In this document: positions 35,793-43,159 of the stretch, one piece after another | Numbering within the stretch: the first letter of the stretch is position 1 | Layout of the letters: every line of letters begins with the position of its first letter | Assembly (NCBI GenBank): GCA_019119395.1 | Contig: DWXC01000027.1 | Span: forward strand, 1 to 64,000 | Direction of reading: 5' to 3' | DNA: 64,000 nt | Origin: Candidatus Borkfalkia stercoripullorum | Lineage (GTDB): Bacteria > Bacillota > Clostridia > Christensenellales > Borkfalkiaceae | Program-made: the position numbers and the translations under genes | The notes under the pieces: model-generated | Database searches by the model: none | What the model was told of the DNA's origin: nothing | What the model saw: the letters and a program-made list of their open reading frames with translations, nothing else

Positions 35793-37307
35793 GTGGAAAA
35801 GATCGGCATCATCGATTTGGGATCGAATTCGGCAAGGCTCGTCATCGTCGAACTGTTCGGCGAGGGGCATTTTATGGTCGTGGACGAGCTTAAGGAGAGC
35901 GTCCGTCTCGGCCAGGATATGGAAAGGGACGGCTTTTTGAAGCCCCAGCGCGTGGCTGAAACCATCAAAACGCTGAAAATGTTTAAAAAGCTCTGCGACG
36001 CGAGCAGGGTGGATCGCATTATAGCCGTCGCGACGGCGGCCGTGCGCAGGGCGAAAAACCAGCGCAGTTTTCTTGACGAATTGCAGGCGACCTGCGGTAT
36101 AAAGGTCAAAGTATTGAGCGAGGAAGAAGAAGCTACGCTCGTATACCGCGGCGTCATCAACTCCATGGACATCCCGAAGGGGATCATCCTCGAGATCGGC
36201 GGCGGCAGCACCAAGATCGTTTATTACAACCGCAGGAATATGCTCAATTACGCGACGCTCCCGTTCGGGGCGGTCACGCTGACCGATCTTTTTAAAGGCG
36301 ACGGGCTCACGCCCGAGCAGCAGGCGGAAAAGGTCGAGGAGTTTTTCACCGAACAGCTTTCGCATATCGAATGGCTTTCCGAAGTCGAACCCGACGTGCA
36401 GATGATCGGTGTGGGCGGTTCTTTCCGCAACATCTTCAAGATCAGCAAACTCGTACGCAAATATCCTTTGGACACCGTGCACAATTACAATCTGCCCGTT
36501 GAAGATTTCGAGTCTATCTACGACATGATCAAGGTTCTCGATCTTGACAAAAAGAAAAAGATCAAGGGGCTTTCTTCGGGCAGGGCGGATATCCTTCCCG
36601 CGGCGCTGGCGGTCGTAAAATCGTTCGTGCATTATATGCATTACGACAATTTCGTCATCGGCGGTTCGGGGCTGCGCGAAGGTATCATGTTCAATCAGGC
36701 GCTTCCCATCACTTTGGAAAAGCCGATTTCCGATATTCTCGGGTACAGCCTCAACAGTCTGGTCAAATACTACGAGTGCGACGAAAAGCACGTCGAACAC
36801 GTCGTCAATCTTTCGGTTCAGCTTTTCAAACAGCTCCGCGTTCTGCATAAGTTCCCGCGGCAGTATCTGAAGATCCTGAAAGTGGCGGCGACCTTGCACG
36901 ACTGCGGCACGCGCGTCAAATTCTATAATCATCAGAAGCACAGTTGCTATATGATCCTCAATGCGACGCTGTACGGCATTACCCACAGGGAGATCGTTTT
37001 GGCGGCGTTCGTTGCGGGATGCCACAAGAAAGAGGACATCAACGCTGCGGATTGGGCGAAGTATAAGGACATTGTGCAGGAGGACGACTTTGACGCGGTG
37101 AAAAAACTCGGCGTCATGCTCCGCATCGCGGAAAGTCTGGACAGGAGCAGTTCGGGGACGGTCAAGGGCATCAACTGCGACGTGCTCGGAGATTCCGTCA
37201 TCATGAAGACTGAAGTGGACGGGGACGCTTCTTTGGAGATCCGCGACGCGCTTACGGCGAATGCGGAGTTCAGAAAGTCTTTCCGTAAAAATCTTGAGAT
37301 CCTTTAA
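35793..37307 (+). CDS. Ppx/GppA family exopolyphosphatase with HD domain
   Basis: 504 residues, GTG start with GAGGT 7-8 bases upstream. The N-terminal ASKHA phosphatase domain has DLGSNSARLVIVE and EIGGGSTKIVYYN; the C-terminal half (from about 320) has the HD-type LHDCGTRVKFYNHQKHSCYMI segment. Such proteins degrade polyphosphate and/or hydrolyse pppGpp to ppGpp, linking phosphate and stringent responses. It stands apart from any polyphosphate kinase gene in this window. Confidence 0.88.
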   Translation: MEKIGIIDLGSNSARLVIVELFGEGHFMVVDELKESVRLGQDMERDGFLKPQRVAETIKTLKMFKKLCDASRVDRIIAVATAAVRRAKNQRSFLDELQATCGIKVKVLSEEEEATLVYRGVINSMDIPKGIILEIGGGSTKIVYYNRRNMLNYATLPFGAVTLTDLFKGDGLTPEQQAEKVEEFFTEQLSHIEWLSEVEPDVQMIGVGGSFRNIFKISKLVRKYPLDTVHNYNLPVEDFESIYDMIKVLDLDKKKKIKGLSSGRADILPAALAVVKSFVHYMHYDNFVIGGSGLREGIMFNQALPITLEKPISDILGYSLNSLVKYYECDEKHVEHVVNLSVQLFKQLRVLHKFPRQYLKILKVAATLHDCGTRVKFYNHQKHSCYMILNATLYGITHREIVLAAFVAGCHKKEDINAADWAKYKDIVQEDDFDAVKKLGVMLRIAESLDRSSSGTVKGINCDVLGDSVIMKTEVDGDASLEIRDALTANAEFRKSFRKNLEIL

Positions 37308-37361: not shown

Positions 37362-37919
37362 ATGAAACTTATACTTGCGAGCGCGTCTCCGCGCAGAAAA
37401 GAAATACTGTCGCGTTTGATCGGGGATTTCGAAGTGATCCCGTCGGACGCGGAAGAAAAAACAGAGGGGCTTTCCCCGAGGGATACGGCTGAAACGCTCG
37501 CGGTCCGCAAGGCGGAAAGCGTGTTTGCGCGGTATCCCGGCTGTGCCGTTCTGGGCGCGGATACCGTCGTCGCGTTCGAAAACTGCATTTTGGGCAAGCC
37601 GAAAGACGAGGCGGACGCGGCAAAGACTCTTGCGCGGCTGAGCGGCAAAAAACACGAAGTGTTTACGGGCTGGTGCCTGATCGCGCCGTGCGGCAGGGCG
37701 AGCGGCGCGGAACGTTCGGAAGTGGAATTCAATGCGCTGAGCGAGGCGTTCATCCGCGCATACGTCGAGAGCGGGAAACCGTTGGACAAGGCGGGCAGTT
37801 ACGGCATTCAGGACGATAAACGCATCGTAAAGAGGTATGAAGGAAGTTTTACGAATATCGTGGGGCTTCCCGAAGAGCAAATAAAAATTCAGTTGGAAAA
37901 ATTCGGGTTATACAAATGA
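37362..37919 (+). CDS. maf: Maf-like nucleotide pyrophosphatase
   Basis: 185 residues from the ATG at 37362; an upstream in-frame start lies within the hairpin and lacks conserved residues. ASASPRRKEIL (N-terminus), VLGADTVVAF, and the SYGIQDD segment are Maf signatures. Maf proteins hydrolyse dTTP/UTP or modified nucleotides and are linked to septum formation. In Clostridia maf usually precedes mreBCD; here an mreB-like gene overlaps it by 4 bases. The ribosome binding site is weak. Confidence 0.9.
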   Translation: MKLILASASPRRKEILSRLIGDFEVIPSDAEEKTEGLSPRDTAETLAVRKAESVFARYPGCAVLGADTVVAFENCILGKPKDEADAAKTLARLSGKKHEVFTGWCLIAPCGRASGAERSEVEFNALSEAFIRAYVESGKPLDKAGSYGIQDDKRIVKRYEGSFTNIVGLPEEQIKIQLEKFGLYK

Positions 37920-38914
37920 TTAAGTTAGCGATCGATCTCGGTTCATCCGTCACGAAAATTTTTATGATCGGCAGCGGCATCGTGCTGGCCGAACCGTCGT
38001 GCGTGGCGGTCGCTTCGGGCACGGACGTCGTCAAGGCGATCGGGGAAGAGGCAAAGCAGCTGATCGGTAAAACGGCGGAATATACGACGATCGTGTCTCC
38101 CGTGTTTGAGGCGGACATCGTCAACGAAAATATGGCGGCGGTCATGCTCTCTTATTTTTTGAAAAAAATCGAGATCGGCCCGTCCCGTGCGAGAAAAACC
38201 GAAGCCGTGTTCGCCGTTCCGTGCGGCGCGTCTGAAGAGCTGCTCGATAAATATTACCGCCTGGCGGACGCCTGCAAGATCGGCAGCGTGCGCTTTGCCG
38301 AAGTGCCGTTTTTGTCCGCGTTCGGGCAAAACCTTATGTTGAGCGAAACCAACCCCGTATTCGTCATCGATATCGGCGGCGGGTGTACGAACATCGCGGC
38401 GTTTTCTTTGGACGGAATCATTGCGGGGGTCTCCCTCAATATCGGCGGCGGGAATATCGACAGCCACGTTATTGACAAGGTCGCGGAATCGTTCAACCTG
38501 AAGATCGGGCTTCTGACCAGCGAAAAGATCAAAAACACGATCGGAAGCCTGTATAAAAACGATAACGACAGTATGGTCGTCAACGGGCGCGACATCACGA
38601 GCGGCCGCCCGCGTTCCGTCGCCGTTTCGTCTCCCGACGTGTATGAATGCATGAAGGTTTTTGCCGATAAGATCGTCGAATATGCGGGCATGGTGCTTGC
38701 CAAGCTGCCCGCGGAAGTTTCCGCGTCGGTCTGGCACGGAGGCATTTATCTGTCCGGCGGGATGGCGAAATTGATCGGGTTGGACGATTATATTTCGAAC
38801 GCGCTGCAAATGGACGTTTACGTCGCGGACGAGCCGCAGATGGCGGTCATCCTCGGCGGAGGCGCGGCGATCGGGAACGAGGATATTTTGGAGACGATCC
38901 GCATAGATTACTGA
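37916..38914 (+). CDS. divergent MreB-like actin homologue
   Basis: 332 residues. Phosphate-1 loop AIDLGSSVTKIF, phosphate-2 FVIDIGGGCTNIAAFSLDG and the adenosine-side GGIYLSGGMAKL define the actin fold; GIVLAEPSCVAV and SEKIKNTIGSLY..GRDITSGRPRSV align with MreB/Mbl. The membrane-binding N-terminal extension of some MreBs is absent and the EEPMAAAIG segment is replaced by AEVPFLSAFG. MreB filaments guide side-wall synthesis. mreC and mreD do not follow, so this may be a specialised paralogue. Confidence 0.75.
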   Translation: MIKLAIDLGSSVTKIFMIGSGIVLAEPSCVAVASGTDVVKAIGEEAKQLIGKTAEYTTIVSPVFEADIVNENMAAVMLSYFLKKIEIGPSRARKTEAVFAVPCGASEELLDKYYRLADACKIGSVRFAEVPFLSAFGQNLMLSETNPVFVIDIGGGCTNIAAFSLDGIIAGVSLNIGGGNIDSHVIDKVAESFNLKIGLLTSEKIKNTIGSLYKNDNDSMVVNGRDITSGRPRSVAVSSPDVYECMKVFADKIVEYAGMVLAKLPAEVSASVWHGGIYLSGGMAKLIGLDDYISNALQMDVYVADEPQMAVILGGGAAIGNEDILETIRIDY

Positions 38915-38947
38915 TGCGGCGTTTATAATTCAAAAGGGAGGGAATGT

Positions 38948-40486
38948 ATGAAAAAGTGTTTGCAATGCGGGCAGGAAGCGGAAGATTCTTTAAATTTCTG
39001 CGGTCATTGCGGTGCAAGTTTGGGGCAAGAGCCCGCGGAGCGGTCTGACGGCGGAAGAACGGCGGACGCCGAAAGGAAAAAGGAAAAAAGAGAGAAGAGA
39101 ATTGCGTCGATCAGGCGCGTCTTTTCGGGTATAGTCATGCCGGCCCTTGCTGCGTTTGTCGGCCTCGTGCTTTTTGTGAGCGGTTTTTTTATCAACATCG
39201 ATTATTATCCCGCCGAACAGGTACAGGCACAGTTTAATTTGATTTCTGGCGATACGGATATTTCGGCCGTTCTGGAACAGACGCCCGTCGAGCAAAACGT
39301 GTTCAATGTTTTCGGCGCGTTGTTTACGGGGAAAGATGCCGAAAAGATTGCGGAGAAACAGCAGGAAATACAGCAAAAACTTTCCGCGAAACTGCAAAAC
39401 GTCATGCAGGATTACGGTATGCGCATTGCGGAACTTTCGTTGGCGGCCGAAGCCGGGGATTCCGGGGTGGTCGCGGAGCTGTTTGCGCTTTACGAAGAAA
39501 TAGCCGACGATTACGCATCGGAATTGGCGGGCATAAATCTTATACAGAGCGACGTAATTGCGGCGGAACTTGCGCTGAGCCAGGCGGACGGCTCTATGGC
39601 CGGCGGAGATTCTTCTGCCCGGGTGGATAAATGGGTCGCGGATACATATTTCCGTACCGCCATTATGACCGTATACGTCTTCGGTTATATTTATTTACTG
39701 GCGATCTCGCTGTTGTATTTGTACGGCGCTGTTATCGGGTTTGTCAGGCACAAGGAGAATACGCGGGGCGGGAAATTTTTCCTTATGTACCTTTTGGGGT
39801 GCTTCGCGATGCTGGCGGCAGGGCAGCTGACCGCAACCTCTTTGAACGCGGTCGGCATATTCTGCTTCGTTTTTGCCGCGGCGGCCGCGCTCGTTTATTA
39901 CGCGATGCGTGTATTCTGTACATATAAGTTTGATGCGAAGAGCATTGTCGCGCTCTCGGTGAAAGGAGTTTCGGCAATTTTTTGTTTTGCCGTGCTTTGC
40001 GTTTTAATGGGAAATATATACGATTTCGGAGTAGCCGTCGATAAGATCGGCGCGGTTTTCGGGATGTATGTATTCGGTGACGCGTACGGGTTTTCCGAAG
40101 GCGTGGCCATTACGTTGAGGAATTTCTTTGCCGTGACGATCCCGTACCTTGCGGTCTGTGCGTTTACGGCGATATTGTTTTTCAGGCAGATGCGGTCTGT
40201 TTGGGAGAACGGGGCGGATGAATCTTTGTTGTGGTTTGCCGCTCCGGCGGGCTTTGCTTTGGCGCAAATGATCGTTTTGTTTGCGTGCACGGAAGCGGGC
40301 GCGGTCGCATTGGTGGAGACTCCCGGTGCGGCGTTTACCGTGTTTTTGCTTTTGGCGGCGGTTGCGGTTTGCTGTGTTGCGGGGGGTGCGTTGAGCAAGG
40401 AACTTTCGCAAAAGGCTGACGGCGGATCGGAAGCGGGCGGCGAGGGCTGCGTTGCCGATGAAGGCGTGCCGCCCGATCAGATATAA
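38948..40486 (+). CDS. zinc-ribbon multi-pass membrane protein, function unknown
   Basis: 512 residues. The N-terminus is a short zinc ribbon (CLQCG..CGHCG, residues 4-23) followed by a charged linker. One membrane helix at about 58-80, an external loop of ~150 residues predicted helical (glutamine- and glutamate-rich AEKIAEKQQEIQQKLSAKLQ), then about seven more helices to residue 480 and a short acidic tail. The layout suggests a regulator or scaffold with a cytoplasmic zinc knuckle. It lies 33 bases after the MreB-like gene with an AAGGGAGGG site, so the two are probably co-expressed. Not recognised. Confidence 0.65.
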   Translation: MKKCLQCGQEAEDSLNFCGHCGASLGQEPAERSDGGRTADAERKKEKREKRIASIRRVFSGIVMPALAAFVGLVLFVSGFFINIDYYPAEQVQAQFNLISGDTDISAVLEQTPVEQNVFNVFGALFTGKDAEKIAEKQQEIQQKLSAKLQNVMQDYGMRIAELSLAAEAGDSGVVAELFALYEEIADDYASELAGINLIQSDVIAAELALSQADGSMAGGDSSARVDKWVADTYFRTAIMTVYVFGYIYLLAISLLYLYGAVIGFVRHKENTRGGKFFLMYLLGCFAMLAAGQLTATSLNAVGIFCFVFAAAAALVYYAMRVFCTYKFDAKSIVALSVKGVSAIFCFAVLCVLMGNIYDFGVAVDKIGAVFGMYVFGDAYGFSEGVAITLRNFFAVTIPYLAVCAFTAILFFRQMRSVWENGADESLLWFAAPAGFALAQMIVLFACTEAGAVALVETPGAAFTVFLLLAAVAVCCVAGGALSKELSQKADGGSEAGGEGCVADEGVPPDQI

Positions 40487-40502
40487 ATTTACGGAAATAA
40501 AG

Positions 40503-40540
40503 ACGTGCGCCTCCTTTTCTAAAAAGGAGGCGCACGTTTT
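40503..40540. terminator. bidirectional terminator
   Basis: 16-bp perfect stem, ACGTGCGCCTCCTTTT (40503-40518) with AAAAGGAGGCGCACGT (40522-40537) and a 3-base loop, between convergent genes. T-rich on both exits. Confidence 0.93.
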
Positions 40541-40552
40541 CATGTCAGCCGT

Positions 40553-42217
40553 TTATTCGCGGTGAAAGTCGTTTTCCCTGATCTCAACGCGGCGTATTTT
40601 GCCGCTGATCGTTTTGGGAAGCTCTTCCACGAATTCGACGATGCGCGGGTATTTGTAAGGCGCGGTCGTCTTTTTAACGTGATTTTGCAGTTCTTTGACG
40701 AGCTCTTCGCTCGCTTCATAGCCTTTGGCGAGCACGACGGTCGCCTTTACGATCTGTCCGCGCAGTTCGTCCGGTACGGCGGTAATGGCGCACTCGAGTA
40801 CTGCGGGGTGTTCCATGAGGGCGCTCTCCACTTCGAACGGCCCGATGCGGTAGCCCGAACTTTTGATGATGTCGTCTTTCCTTCCGACGAACCAATAATA
40901 ACCGTCGCTGTCACAGAACGCAAGGTCGCCCATGTGGTAGTACCCGTCGTATTTTACCGATTCGGTCAGCGCGTCGTCGAGGTAATAGCCCGAAAACAAC
41001 CCTTCCTGCGGGTCGCGCAGGCGGATGCAGATCTCGCCGGTCTCTCCCTGCTCGACGGGCCTGTCCTCGTTGTTCAAAAGCTGTACGTAATAGAGGGGGG
41101 AAGGCCTGCCCATCGAACCGGGGCGTATCTCCATGTATTGAGAAAACGTGCCGCACACGACCGTCGTTTCCGTCTGGCCGAACCCTTCGTAAATGGCGTG
41201 CCCCGTTTTCATCATGATCTGGCGGTAAATTTCGGGGTTGAGCGCTTCGCCTGCCGTCATCATGAATTTGATGCTCGAAAGGTCGTATTTGGAAAGGTCT
41301 GATTTCATCATGAAACGGTAGACGGTAGGGGGCGCGCAGAAAGTCGTGATGCCGTATTTGGATACGTGGTTCAGGAGCGCGTCGGGGTCGAATTTTCCGT
41401 GAAAATCATATACGAAGATCGCCGAACCGCAAAGCCACTGTCCGAACAGTTTTCCCCAGCTCGCTTTTGCCCAACCCGTTTCGGCAAGCGTGAAGTGCAG
41501 CCCGTCGTCCATGCAGTTGAGCCAATATTTTGCGGTCACGATATGCCCGAGCGTATAGCGCTGGGGCAGGGCGACCATTTTAGGCATTCCCGTAGTACCC
41601 GAAGTAAAATAGACGAGAATGGTATCGCCGGCACTGCGCTCGTTTTTGTAGGGGATATCGAGCGTTTCGCTCTGCTTTTCCGTCTCTTCCGTGTAGTCGA
41701 TAAAACCTTCGCGTTTTCCGACGCACACCGCCTGCACGGGGGAAGAAACTTTTTTTACCGCTTTGAGGATATTGTCGCACAGTTCGTCTTCGCTTACGGC
41801 GACGATCATTTTAACGCGGGCTTTTTCCATGCGGTATACGATGTCTTTTTCCATCAGCATGTGCGTCGCGGGGATGGCGATCGCGCCGAGTTTTGCAAGC
41901 GCCATCAAAGTCGTCCAGTATTCCCAGCGCCGCTGCAATATGACGAGCACGGTATCTCCTTTTCCGATCCCGCGGGAACGGAAAAAGTTTGCCGCCTTGT
42001 CGGAAAGGCGCTTGACGTCGGCAAACGAAAAGATGCGTTCGTCTCCGAGGTCGTCGCACCAGACGAGCGCGCGTTTTTCGGGCGTAAGCCTCGCGTATTC
42101 ATCCACAACGTCGTATGCGTAATTGAAGTTTTCGGGGACGTTGAGCCTGAAATTGTTATAGAAATCGTTGTAATCTTTGAATTGCGTGGAATTTGTGAAC
42201 CGATCCAGAAGATTCAT
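40553..42217 (-). CDS. acyl-CoA synthetase (AMP-forming, medium-chain/acetyl type)
   Basis: 554 residues. Motifs of the ANL superfamily: P-loop YFTSGTTGMPK, core YEGFGQTETT, hinge YHMGDLAFCDSDGYYWFVGRKDDIIKSSG (in part), and the catalytic Lys in PKTISGKIRR near the C-terminus. Activates a carboxylic acid to acyl-AMP then acyl-CoA in the cytoplasm. The N-terminal DRFTNSTQFKDYNDFYNNF is typical of the acetyl-CoA synthetase-like group of gut Clostridia. An extended -10 (TG-T-TAGAAT, 42264-42269) lies upstream. Confidence 0.88.
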   Translation of the reverse strand: MNLLDRFTNSTQFKDYNDFYNNFRLNVPENFNYAYDVVDEYARLTPEKRALVWCDDLGDERIFSFADVKRLSDKAANFFRSRGIGKGDTVLVILQRRWEYWTTLMALAKLGAIAIPATHMLMEKDIVYRMEKARVKMIVAVSEDELCDNILKAVKKVSSPVQAVCVGKREGFIDYTEETEKQSETLDIPYKNERSAGDTILVYFTSGTTGMPKMVALPQRYTLGHIVTAKYWLNCMDDGLHFTLAETGWAKASWGKLFGQWLCGSAIFVYDFHGKFDPDALLNHVSKYGITTFCAPPTVYRFMMKSDLSKYDLSSIKFMMTAGEALNPEIYRQIMMKTGHAIYEGFGQTETTVVCGTFSQYMEIRPGSMGRPSPLYYVQLLNNEDRPVEQGETGEICIRLRDPQEGLFSGYYLDDALTESVKYDGYYHMGDLAFCDSDGYYWFVGRKDDIIKSSGYRIGPFEVESALMEHPAVLECAITAVPDELRGQIVKATVVLAKGYEASEELVKELQNHVKKTTAPYKYPRIVEFVEELPKTISGKIRRVEIRENDFHRE

Positions 42218-42409: not shown

Positions 42410-42772
42410 ATGCTCGATAAACTGACCGCCGCCGTCCTCGAGATCGTGAACGAAGGATCGGGCGGTGCTTACAAAGTTATGGACGCGGACGATTTTCTCC
42501 CCGCGCTCAAAGAATCAGGGAAAGACGGTGCGGGGCTGGAAAGCGCGCTCCGTTACCTCGGCGAACGCGGTTATATCGACATCCGATATGCGGACAAGGG
42601 TACGTATTGTCTGTGTTCCCTTCCCAAAGGCAGAACGTATGCGGAGACCGCTGCCGCGGAGCGGGCGGAAAAAAAGACGAAAGGAAAGTTTTTGGCATTT
42701 TTTTTCGGCGCGTTCGCGGGCGGCTTTCTGGGCGCGCTCGCCGCGGGGCTGCTTGCGGCTTTCGTGTTTTGA
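42410..42772 (+). CDS. membrane-anchored winged-helix-like protein 1
   Basis: 120 residues. Residues 1-75 have the helix-helix-helix-wing spacing of a small winged-helix domain (LTAAVLEIVNE, FLPALKESG, LESALRYLGERGYIDIRYADKGTYCLC), and the C-terminus is a glycine-rich membrane helix (FLAFFFGAFAGGFLGALAAG). Good GGAGG site. The next gene has the same layout. No enzyme motif. The DNA- or protein-binding head would face the cytoplasm. Not a family I can name. Confidence 0.6.
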   Translation: MLDKLTAAVLEIVNEGSGGAYKVMDADDFLPALKESGKDGAGLESALRYLGERGYIDIRYADKGTYCLCSLPKGRTYAETAAAERAEKKTKGKFLAFFFGAFAGGFLGALAAGLLAAFVF

Positions 42773-42799: not shown

Positions 42800-43159
42800 A
42801 TGCTGAACAGACAGGAAAACGAAGTGATGAAAGCCGTGTATTCCATGTGCGACGGCAAGGGCAGCTGCCTCGTCAGCCCCATGGAGATCATGAGCATTCT
42901 TCCCGAAAAAAAGAAATATTCACCCGACCGCGTGGAAAAGATCTTGCATTCTTTGGAACTGGACGACTATTTCGACCTCATCGAGTCGGACAGAAAGGGG
43001 GAAAAGATGTACGTCATCACCCTGCACCCGAACGGGGAAGCGTATGCGCGCGAGCGGTTGCAGATGCGCCGCAGCGTCGCGTTCAAGATCGGACTTTCCG
43101 TCGCGGGTGCGGTCGTAACGTTTGTCGTCGGGCTGATTTTGAAAAGTATTTTTTCCTGA
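42800..43159 (+). CDS. membrane-anchored winged-helix-like protein 2
   Basis: 119 residues. Again a small winged-helix-type head (QENEVMKAVYSMCDG, SPDRVEKILHSLELDDYFDLIESDRKGEKMYVITL) followed by one C-terminal membrane helix (FKIGLSVAGAVVTFVVGLIL). Length, order and position make it a paralogue or partner of the preceding gene, 27 bases away. A terminator follows, so the pair is separate from uvrBA. Confidence 0.6.
   Translation: MLNRQENEVMKAVYSMCDGKGSCLVSPMEIMSILPEKKKYSPDRVEKILHSLELDDYFDLIESDRKGEKMYVITLHPNGEAYARERLQMRRSVAFKIGLSVAGAVVTFVVGLILKSIFS

Follow-up and report, generated by a model that had tools for sequence, protein, structure and literature searches.

An MreB-family actin kept without detectable MreC or MreD in Candidatus Borkfalkia, beside a patchily distributed membrane-protein gene

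Introduction

MreB is usually discussed as a member of the Rod complex, encoded in the order maf-mreB-mreC-mreD. The locus studied here raises the question of what an MreB may do where mreC and mreD are missing, and whether the gene that follows it encodes their substitute. The locus lies in a window of 64,000 nucleotides (positions 1 to 64,000 of the forward strand of contig DWXC01000027.1), taken from the 92% complete assembly GCA_019119395.1 of Candidatus Borkfalkia stercoripullorum, hereafter the own genome. The accessible part of PMC11536998 places metagenome-assembled genomes (MAGs) of Borkfalkiaceae in the order Christensenellales. In a first-pass annotation of this DNA, maf, an MreB-like gene and a gene for a 512-residue membrane protein, here labelled ZrTM, were described in tandem at 37362-40486, and the open reading frames (ORFs) found there agree. 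The annotation went on to propose that the membrane protein replaces MreC and MreD as the partner of a specialised actin. Here, the MreB, the Rod complex genes and ZrTM were compared across genomes (handles G000-G063), the genus being Candidatus Borkfalkia.

A conserved MreB without detectable MreC or MreD

The gene at 37916..38914 (plus strand) encodes a 332-residue MreB-family actin, which is full-length, as residues 3-322 match PF06723 with 242 bits (cut-off 27). Its best PDB matches are MreB, and its predicted structure (predicted local distance difference test, pLDDT, 94) superposes on 1jce with a Z of 42.7 and a root-mean-square deviation of 1.8 over 328 residues. The top 23 rows of the structure comparison are all MreB or Mbl (Z 36.2-43.9), followed by BeeR (34.3) and MamK (33.8). 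The protein scores under the NCBI naming cut-offs (TIGR00904, 211.6 against 365.75; NF010539, 236.6 against 293). MreB is present in all 37 genus genomes, and the own genome holds one. The ratio of nonsynonymous to synonymous substitution rates (dN/dS) of mreB is 0.048-0.165 in seven pairs, indicating that this is not a decaying gene. The MreB and MreC counts cover these 37 genomes; the additional genus genomes G061-G063 enter the ZrTM count.

Neither MreC (PF04085) nor MreD (PF04093) was matched in the own genome or in any of the 37 genus genomes. The earlier surmise of a specialised MreB in a lineage where neither is detected is thus supported, and a search for canonical mreBCD elsewhere in the own genome found no MreC or MreD besides the single MreB. 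A SEDS gene was matched in 32 of the 37 genomes and never more than once, counting as one gene the contig-end pieces that gave double matches in G014 and G029; there was no match in G003, G007, G010, G015 and G034. The SEDS protein of the own genome is FtsW (TIGR02614, 362.8; cut-off 337.5), encoded with FtsZ in the dcw cluster, and RodA was not detected. PF00905 gave no more than two matches in any genus genome, compared with five to eight rows in the nine MreC-positive genomes, so that a separate PBP2 was not seen. Besides FtsZ and FtsW, the own genome encodes an FtsI/SpoVD-type penicillin-binding protein (PBP). It has no match to HTH_25 (RodZ), and RimO and PgsA have no ORF between them; partial HTH matches occur in other genomes, and within the genus those of G007 and G020 exceed the cut-off. 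In the own genome, the FtsA-like gene before ftsZ (L150, 15248-16438) is strongly diverged, with 61.7 bits against a TIGR01174 cut-off of 175.85.

Among 24 genomes of the order from outside the genus, nine are MreC-positive, and each of these has at least two SEDS genes; 13 of the 15 MreC-negative genomes have exactly one SEDS gene, the two exceptions being G042 (51% complete) and G057 (74% complete). The order maf-mreB-mreC occurs in five MreC-positive families (G037, G039, G050, G052 and G058), and eight MreC-negative families have maf-mreB without mreC, three of them with ppx directly ahead of maf. In an unrooted tree of 48 MreBs, which took 15 of the 33 aligned genus rows, these 15 and ten MreBs from MreC-negative families share one side of a branch with 100/100 support, and the mreC-linked and Mbl-like MreBs fall across it. 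"Mbl-like" is our own label from tree place, and the MreB of G060, whose contig lacks mreC, was likewise classed as mreC-linked by its place in the tree. The alignment comprises ORFs of at least 261 residues (genus) or 230 residues (other families), and the mreC-linked MreB of G037, which contains an internal stop, was omitted from alignment, count and tree. In our sample, every genome in which this orphan clade (the genus and ten other families) was seen lacks a detectable MreC and has no more than one SEDS gene. The tree fits a single event in an ancestor, in which the Rod genes downstream of mreB were lost and mreB itself was kept; as it is unrooted and several of the other-family branches are very long, this event is inferred rather than read directly from it.

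Two MreC-negative genomes carry further MreBs in tandem, three extra paralogues in G053 (L161, 5703-8878) and two in G038 (L152, 4879-6988). These paralogues retain the glutamate of the hydrolysis motif described below, and a maf-linked orphan MreB is present as well.

Loss of the hydrolysis motif

According to the accessible text of PMC9597168, hydrolysis by MreB depends on a motif E...T-X-[D/E], formed by E140, T167 and E169 of Caulobacter crescentus MreB, which is found in 95.8% of 4832 non-Spiroplasma MreBs and is required for release of inorganic phosphate (Pi). By alignment, the window MreB has V130 (codon 38303..38305, plus strand) at the place of the water-positioning E140 and C157-T158-N159 (codons 38384..38392, plus strand) at that of T167-X-E169. 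With V130, C157 and N159 at the triad positions, it lacks the motif and is therefore filed here as MreB-derived rather than as an active MreB.

This loss extends to the whole orphan clade. The intact motif was found in none of the 33 genus rows and none of the ten other-family clade members, compared with 4/6 mreC-linked and 13/17 Mbl-like MreBs. The glutamate alone separates the groups further (0/43 clade rows against 21/23 mreC-linked and Mbl-like rows combined). The MreBs of G007, G016, G034 and G035, which were missed or too short for the 33-row alignment and were examined separately, likewise lack it, so that the glutamate is lost in 37/37 genus genomes. The threonine persists in 4/33 genus rows and 2/10 other-family members, and the acidic residue in 2/33 and 8/10, respectively. 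Elsewhere in the nucleotide cleft the genus is conserved: the phosphate-loop Asp and Gly are retained in each of the 31 rows that have residues at these positions, and all 33 rows retain the adenosine Gly. The membrane-insertion loop was compared with the hydrophobic pair L93/F94 of Thermotoga maritima MreB, as given in the accessible part of PMC3163269. On an alignment that is approximate in this loop, the genus rows shown have basic residues opposite the pair (GPSRARK in the window), and most other-family members have hydrophobic residues near the site.

ZrTM, an accessory gene at the end of the operon

ZrTM (38948..40486, plus strand) encodes 512 residues. Its start, preceded by a good AGGGAGGG-type ribosome-binding site, lies 33 bases past the stop of mreB. 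The architecture previously read from its sequence, an N-terminal zinc ribbon, an external loop and about eight helices, holds. The N-terminus has a CxxC...CxxC ribbon (PF13240, 21.2 bits, slightly below the cut-off of 25), and hydropathy predicts eight membrane segments, one after the ribbon and seven past a loop of about 150 residues that is mostly helical in the predicted model (mean pLDDT 72). The ribbon is matched by Pfam in 6 of 12 ZrTM members.

Neither PF04085 nor PF04093 matches ZrTM at E-values up to 1; Pfam gives zinc-ribbon and DUF4519 models alone, all below cut-off, and NCBIfam nothing above cut-off. ZrTM as a diverged MreC or MreD was rejected on these grounds, as was a defence protein, since PADLOC finds none among the 12 members. 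With the ZrTM model, Foldseek returned no match at E up to 0.001, and VIA-align gave none with a Z reaching 8; no fold is assigned, since this model has a pLDDT of 72 and was built from 12 sequences. TcaA-like zinc-ribbon membrane proteins share the N-terminal ribbon followed by a membrane helix (NF053815, 20.9 bits, residues 1-77), but ZrTM is unmatched past residue 77 and scores far under the cut-off of 550. ZrTM could be an accessory membrane protein whose helical extracytoplasmic domain perhaps senses a ligand.

A profile built from the 12 sequences (those of G023 and G015 were omitted) found ZrTM in 13 of 40 genus genomes, leaving out a weak partial match in G007 (77 positions, E 3e-6). 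It adjoins mreB in nine carriers (G000, G004, G005, G008, G011, G013, G014, G018 and G015, where the pair is cut by a contig end) and is not beside it in four (G010, G020, G023 and G036); in G020 and G036 it lies away from mreB, adjoining an acyl-CoA synthetase-like (acs-like) gene. In ten genomes without ZrTM, mreB is directly convergent to the acs-like gene (G001, G003, G006, G012, G017, G021, G022, G025, G028 and G030). As neighbours in relatives, the pair is thus largely not conserved, an outcome that the first-pass annotation named as refuting its proposal, although nine of the 13 carriers do retain the adjacency. An MreB 93% identical to that of the window occurs in G012 and in DXCL01000026.1 (Candidatus Borkfalkia avistercoris), and ZrTM is absent from G012 (Ca. 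B. avistercoris) despite this identity.

On a Ppx and MreB tree of 37 genomes, the presence and absence of ZrTM require seven changes, four of them forced by well-supported branches, against a mean of 11 after shuffling. ZrTM of the window and that of G008 differ by a synonymous distance of 0.18, whereas the same comparison gives 0.98 (mreB), 0.93 (ppx) and 0.74 (maf); the remaining ZrTM pairs are saturated or at 2.1. Nucleotide identity per 100 bases is 89-98% in ZrTM and 76-88% in mreB; it is 83-85% right after ZrTM but as high as 94% in parts of the acs-like gene. The low synonymous distance and the rise in identity together indicate a recent exchange of ZrTM. Across carriers, amino-acid identity is 28-45% for ZrTM, compared with 78-90% for MreB in most of them. 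The rise in identity to G008 (L062) spans 38880-40500 of the window and is likely a footprint of between-species recombination. In G004 (L079, 5792-8956), mreB is followed by a tandem pair of ZrTM genes, both without the zinc ribbon.

In an order-wide sample of 297 genomes, in which up to five candidates per genome were scored and one other genus member was included, ZrTM gave two weak partial matches besides the own genome (E 1.3e-4 and 5.6e-4) and none among 19 listed genomes from other genera of the family. ZrTM is thus an accessory, fast-evolving gene at the operon end, present in about a third of species, moved between species and not needed by MreB. It is seen with confidence in this genus only, and it is no substitute for MreC and MreD.

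Gene order around mreB

Upstream of mreB, most genus loci preserve the order ppx-maf-mreB. The window has a Ppx/GppA-type phosphatase gene at 35793..37307 (plus strand; PF02541, 179.6 bits) as the conserved neighbour and maf at 37362..37919 (plus strand; PF02545, 188 bits), starting with ATG at 37362; the reading frames of maf and mreB overlap through ATGA. The 3' side is variable. A terminator-like hairpin of 16 pairs (40503..40537, minus strand) separates ZrTM from the convergent gene at 40553..42217 (minus strand), the product of which we presume, from its sequence likeness, to be an acyl-CoA synthetase; it is this gene that is directly convergent to mreB in the ZrTM-less relatives. Elsewhere mreB is followed by a shikimate cluster (G016, G019, G029 and G031), adenylosuccinate synthetase (G002), an exonuclease with NusA (G033), an AMP-binding enzyme with an oxidoreductase (G036), diaminopimelate dehydrogenase (G023) or GcpE (G026). 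As alternative partners these genes were rejected, all being housekeeping, and the 3' side of mreB therefore seems to be a point of rearrangement. Two proteins of about 120 residues at 42410-42772 and 42800-43159, each with one predicted membrane helix and without a Pfam match above cut-off, are common in the genus loci.

Discussion

We explain this locus, with moderate confidence, as a surviving MreB orphaned from its Rod complex, which would act as a nucleotide-binding but poorly hydrolysing scaffold, with ZrTM as a separate accessory gene. The gene order, the Pfam-level absences, the orphan clade, the motif loss, the selection on mreB and the patchiness and exchange of ZrTM are read from the sequences; the biochemistry, cell shape and partners are inferred. 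The actin would be what is left, namely the first gene, of an ancestral maf-mreB-mreC(-mreD-PBP2-rodA) block; on comparative evidence, the remaining Rod complex genes are not detectable in this part of the order. MreB has stayed under purifying selection; it has lost the Glu-Thr-acidic triad, but its actin fold and the majority of residues in the nucleotide cleft are retained. It would bind nucleotide with slow or no turnover. Slow or absent hydrolysis would give stable, non-dynamic assemblies, which favours a static role, and MreB may therefore be a long-lived scaffold or a membrane-associated adaptor. As only FtsW and the FtsI/SpoVD-type PBP are seen, it would have no RodA-PBP2 machine to steer, and its client could be this only remaining SEDS/class B PBP pair, or precursor enzymes. 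Scaffolding of the divisome is our guess by analogy, and the cells probably lack MreB-directed lateral elongation. With MreB in 37/37 genomes, no other core Rod gene detectable and the triad changed, selection seems to maintain a role that does not depend on the Rod complex.

Several observations weigh against this explanation. Weak partial HTH_25 matches exceed the cut-off in G007 and G020. The genomes are drafts, many of them MAGs, and Pfam may miss highly diverged forms of MreC, MreD or RodA; moreover, in the sample for MreC, MreD, SEDS, PBP and SpoIVA the family is represented by this genus alone. Some lineages can do without an orphan MreB, as G047 and G049 have neither MreC nor MreB. Although the glutamate is gone, eight of the ten other-family members retain the acidic residue. 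Furthermore, 2/6 mreC-linked and 4/17 Mbl-like MreBs are also short of a motif element, and the MreC-negative G046 has an Mbl-like MreB with an intact motif, so that the link between losing the Rod genes and losing the motif is not absolute. From the accessible text of PMC9597168, loss of the triad slows hydrolysis and need not abolish it, and Spiroplasma MreB3 still polymerises. The very long branches in the MreB tree count here as well, and the low synonymous distance of ZrTM comes from one species pair.

The idea that ZrTM is a dedicated membrane partner of MreB in place of MreC and MreD draws on its position on the same strand 33 bases from mreB, the adjacency in nine of 13 carriers and the lack of MreC and MreD in the genus. 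It is nonetheless highly improbable, given the 27 of 40 genomes without a counted ZrTM (G012 among them), the seven changes on the genus tree, the placement beside the acs-like gene rather than mreB in G020 and G036, the recent exchange, and a ZrTM far less conserved than MreB in most carriers. The actin may also hydrolyse after all: a filament that is still dynamic through other residues and keeps an ordinary role in wall synthesis, via FtsW or an unrecognised SEDS partner, would fit the retained fold and nucleotide-cleft residues, the purifying selection, and the threonine in 4/33 genus rows and acidic residue in 8/10 other-family members. The loss of the glutamate throughout the genus speaks against this, as does the near-universal motif that the accessible text of PMC9597168 ties to Pi release, and we consider such a filament unlikely, though it deserves some weight.

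Polymerisation itself might have been given up, leaving a monomeric or oligomeric adaptor or regulator. The lost triad and a membrane-insertion loop that is basic rather than hydrophobic (the loop as placed in the accessible part of PMC3163269) would suit this, but a full-length MreB fold that is conserved and changes slowly would not, which makes it rather improbable. We give a similarly low standing to an MreB that acts in sporulation (engulfment or the spore wall) instead of vegetative growth. The own genome encodes SpoIVA, SpoIIIAA and SpoIIIAB, and SpoIVA occurs in 10/10 other-family genomes carrying an orphan-clade MreB; against this, G047 and G049 have SpoIVA without MreB, and the SpoIVA match in the genus, strong in 10/37 genomes, is weak in 21/37 and missing in 6/37, all of which have MreB. 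The weak matches may be functional shortened forms. As an aside, SpoIVA, a second morphogenetic nucleoside triphosphatase of the genus, may itself have lost hydrolysis.

More tentatively than the orphan scaffold itself, and with less than even confidence, we suggest that, once MreC, MreD, RodA and PBP2 had been lost, a clade of bacterial actins turned into MreB scaffolds that are hydrolysis-dead and serve a new function in gut Clostridia, which are probably not rod-shaped and often form spores. If true, the clade would parallel Spiroplasma MreB3 in cells that have a wall, and would offer a natural experiment on an MreB that no longer drives rod growth, in which a Rod-independent role could be studied in isolation. 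A literature search, with subscription papers outside its scope, found no MreB without MreC or RodA described for Borkfalkia or Christensenellales, and a prior description is possible. Two cautions follow for annotation: an mreB gene need not imply rod shape in such gut lineages, and adjacency within one genome is no evidence of partnership.

Compared with the canonical MreB of the Rod complex, the window MreB has the same actin fold (Z about 42 to the MreBs of T. maritima and C. crescentus), the same place behind maf and the same nucleotide-cleft residues. The genus differs in its basic membrane-insertion loop, which is hydrophobic in the canonical protein (loop from the accessible part of PMC3163269). 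It also differs in showing no MreC, MreD or second SEDS gene and in having lost the hydrolysis triad. To our knowledge, the wall-less genus Spiroplasma has no Rod complex; the own genome, unlike Spiroplasma, encodes FtsZ and FtsW. Spiroplasma MreB3 (7e1g) is nevertheless the nearest parallel, an MreB-family actin with a replaced triad and, in the accessible text of PMC9597168, an expected slow release of Pi. The glutamate is Asp in MreB3, however, and V, T, A, S or I here, and the window MreB, 27% identical to MreB3, is the sole MreB of its genome. The Mbl and solo MreB paralogues of Bacillota resemble the orphan MreB in that no mreC follows them, but the Mbl-like proteins of this order lie across the 100/100 branch and largely retain the motif. 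Finally, chlamydial MreB is retained in round cells, as stated in the accessible part of the review PMC12372405; Chlamydia lacks FtsZ, whereas the own genome pairs its single MreB with FtsZ, FtsW and an FtsI/SpoVD-type PBP.

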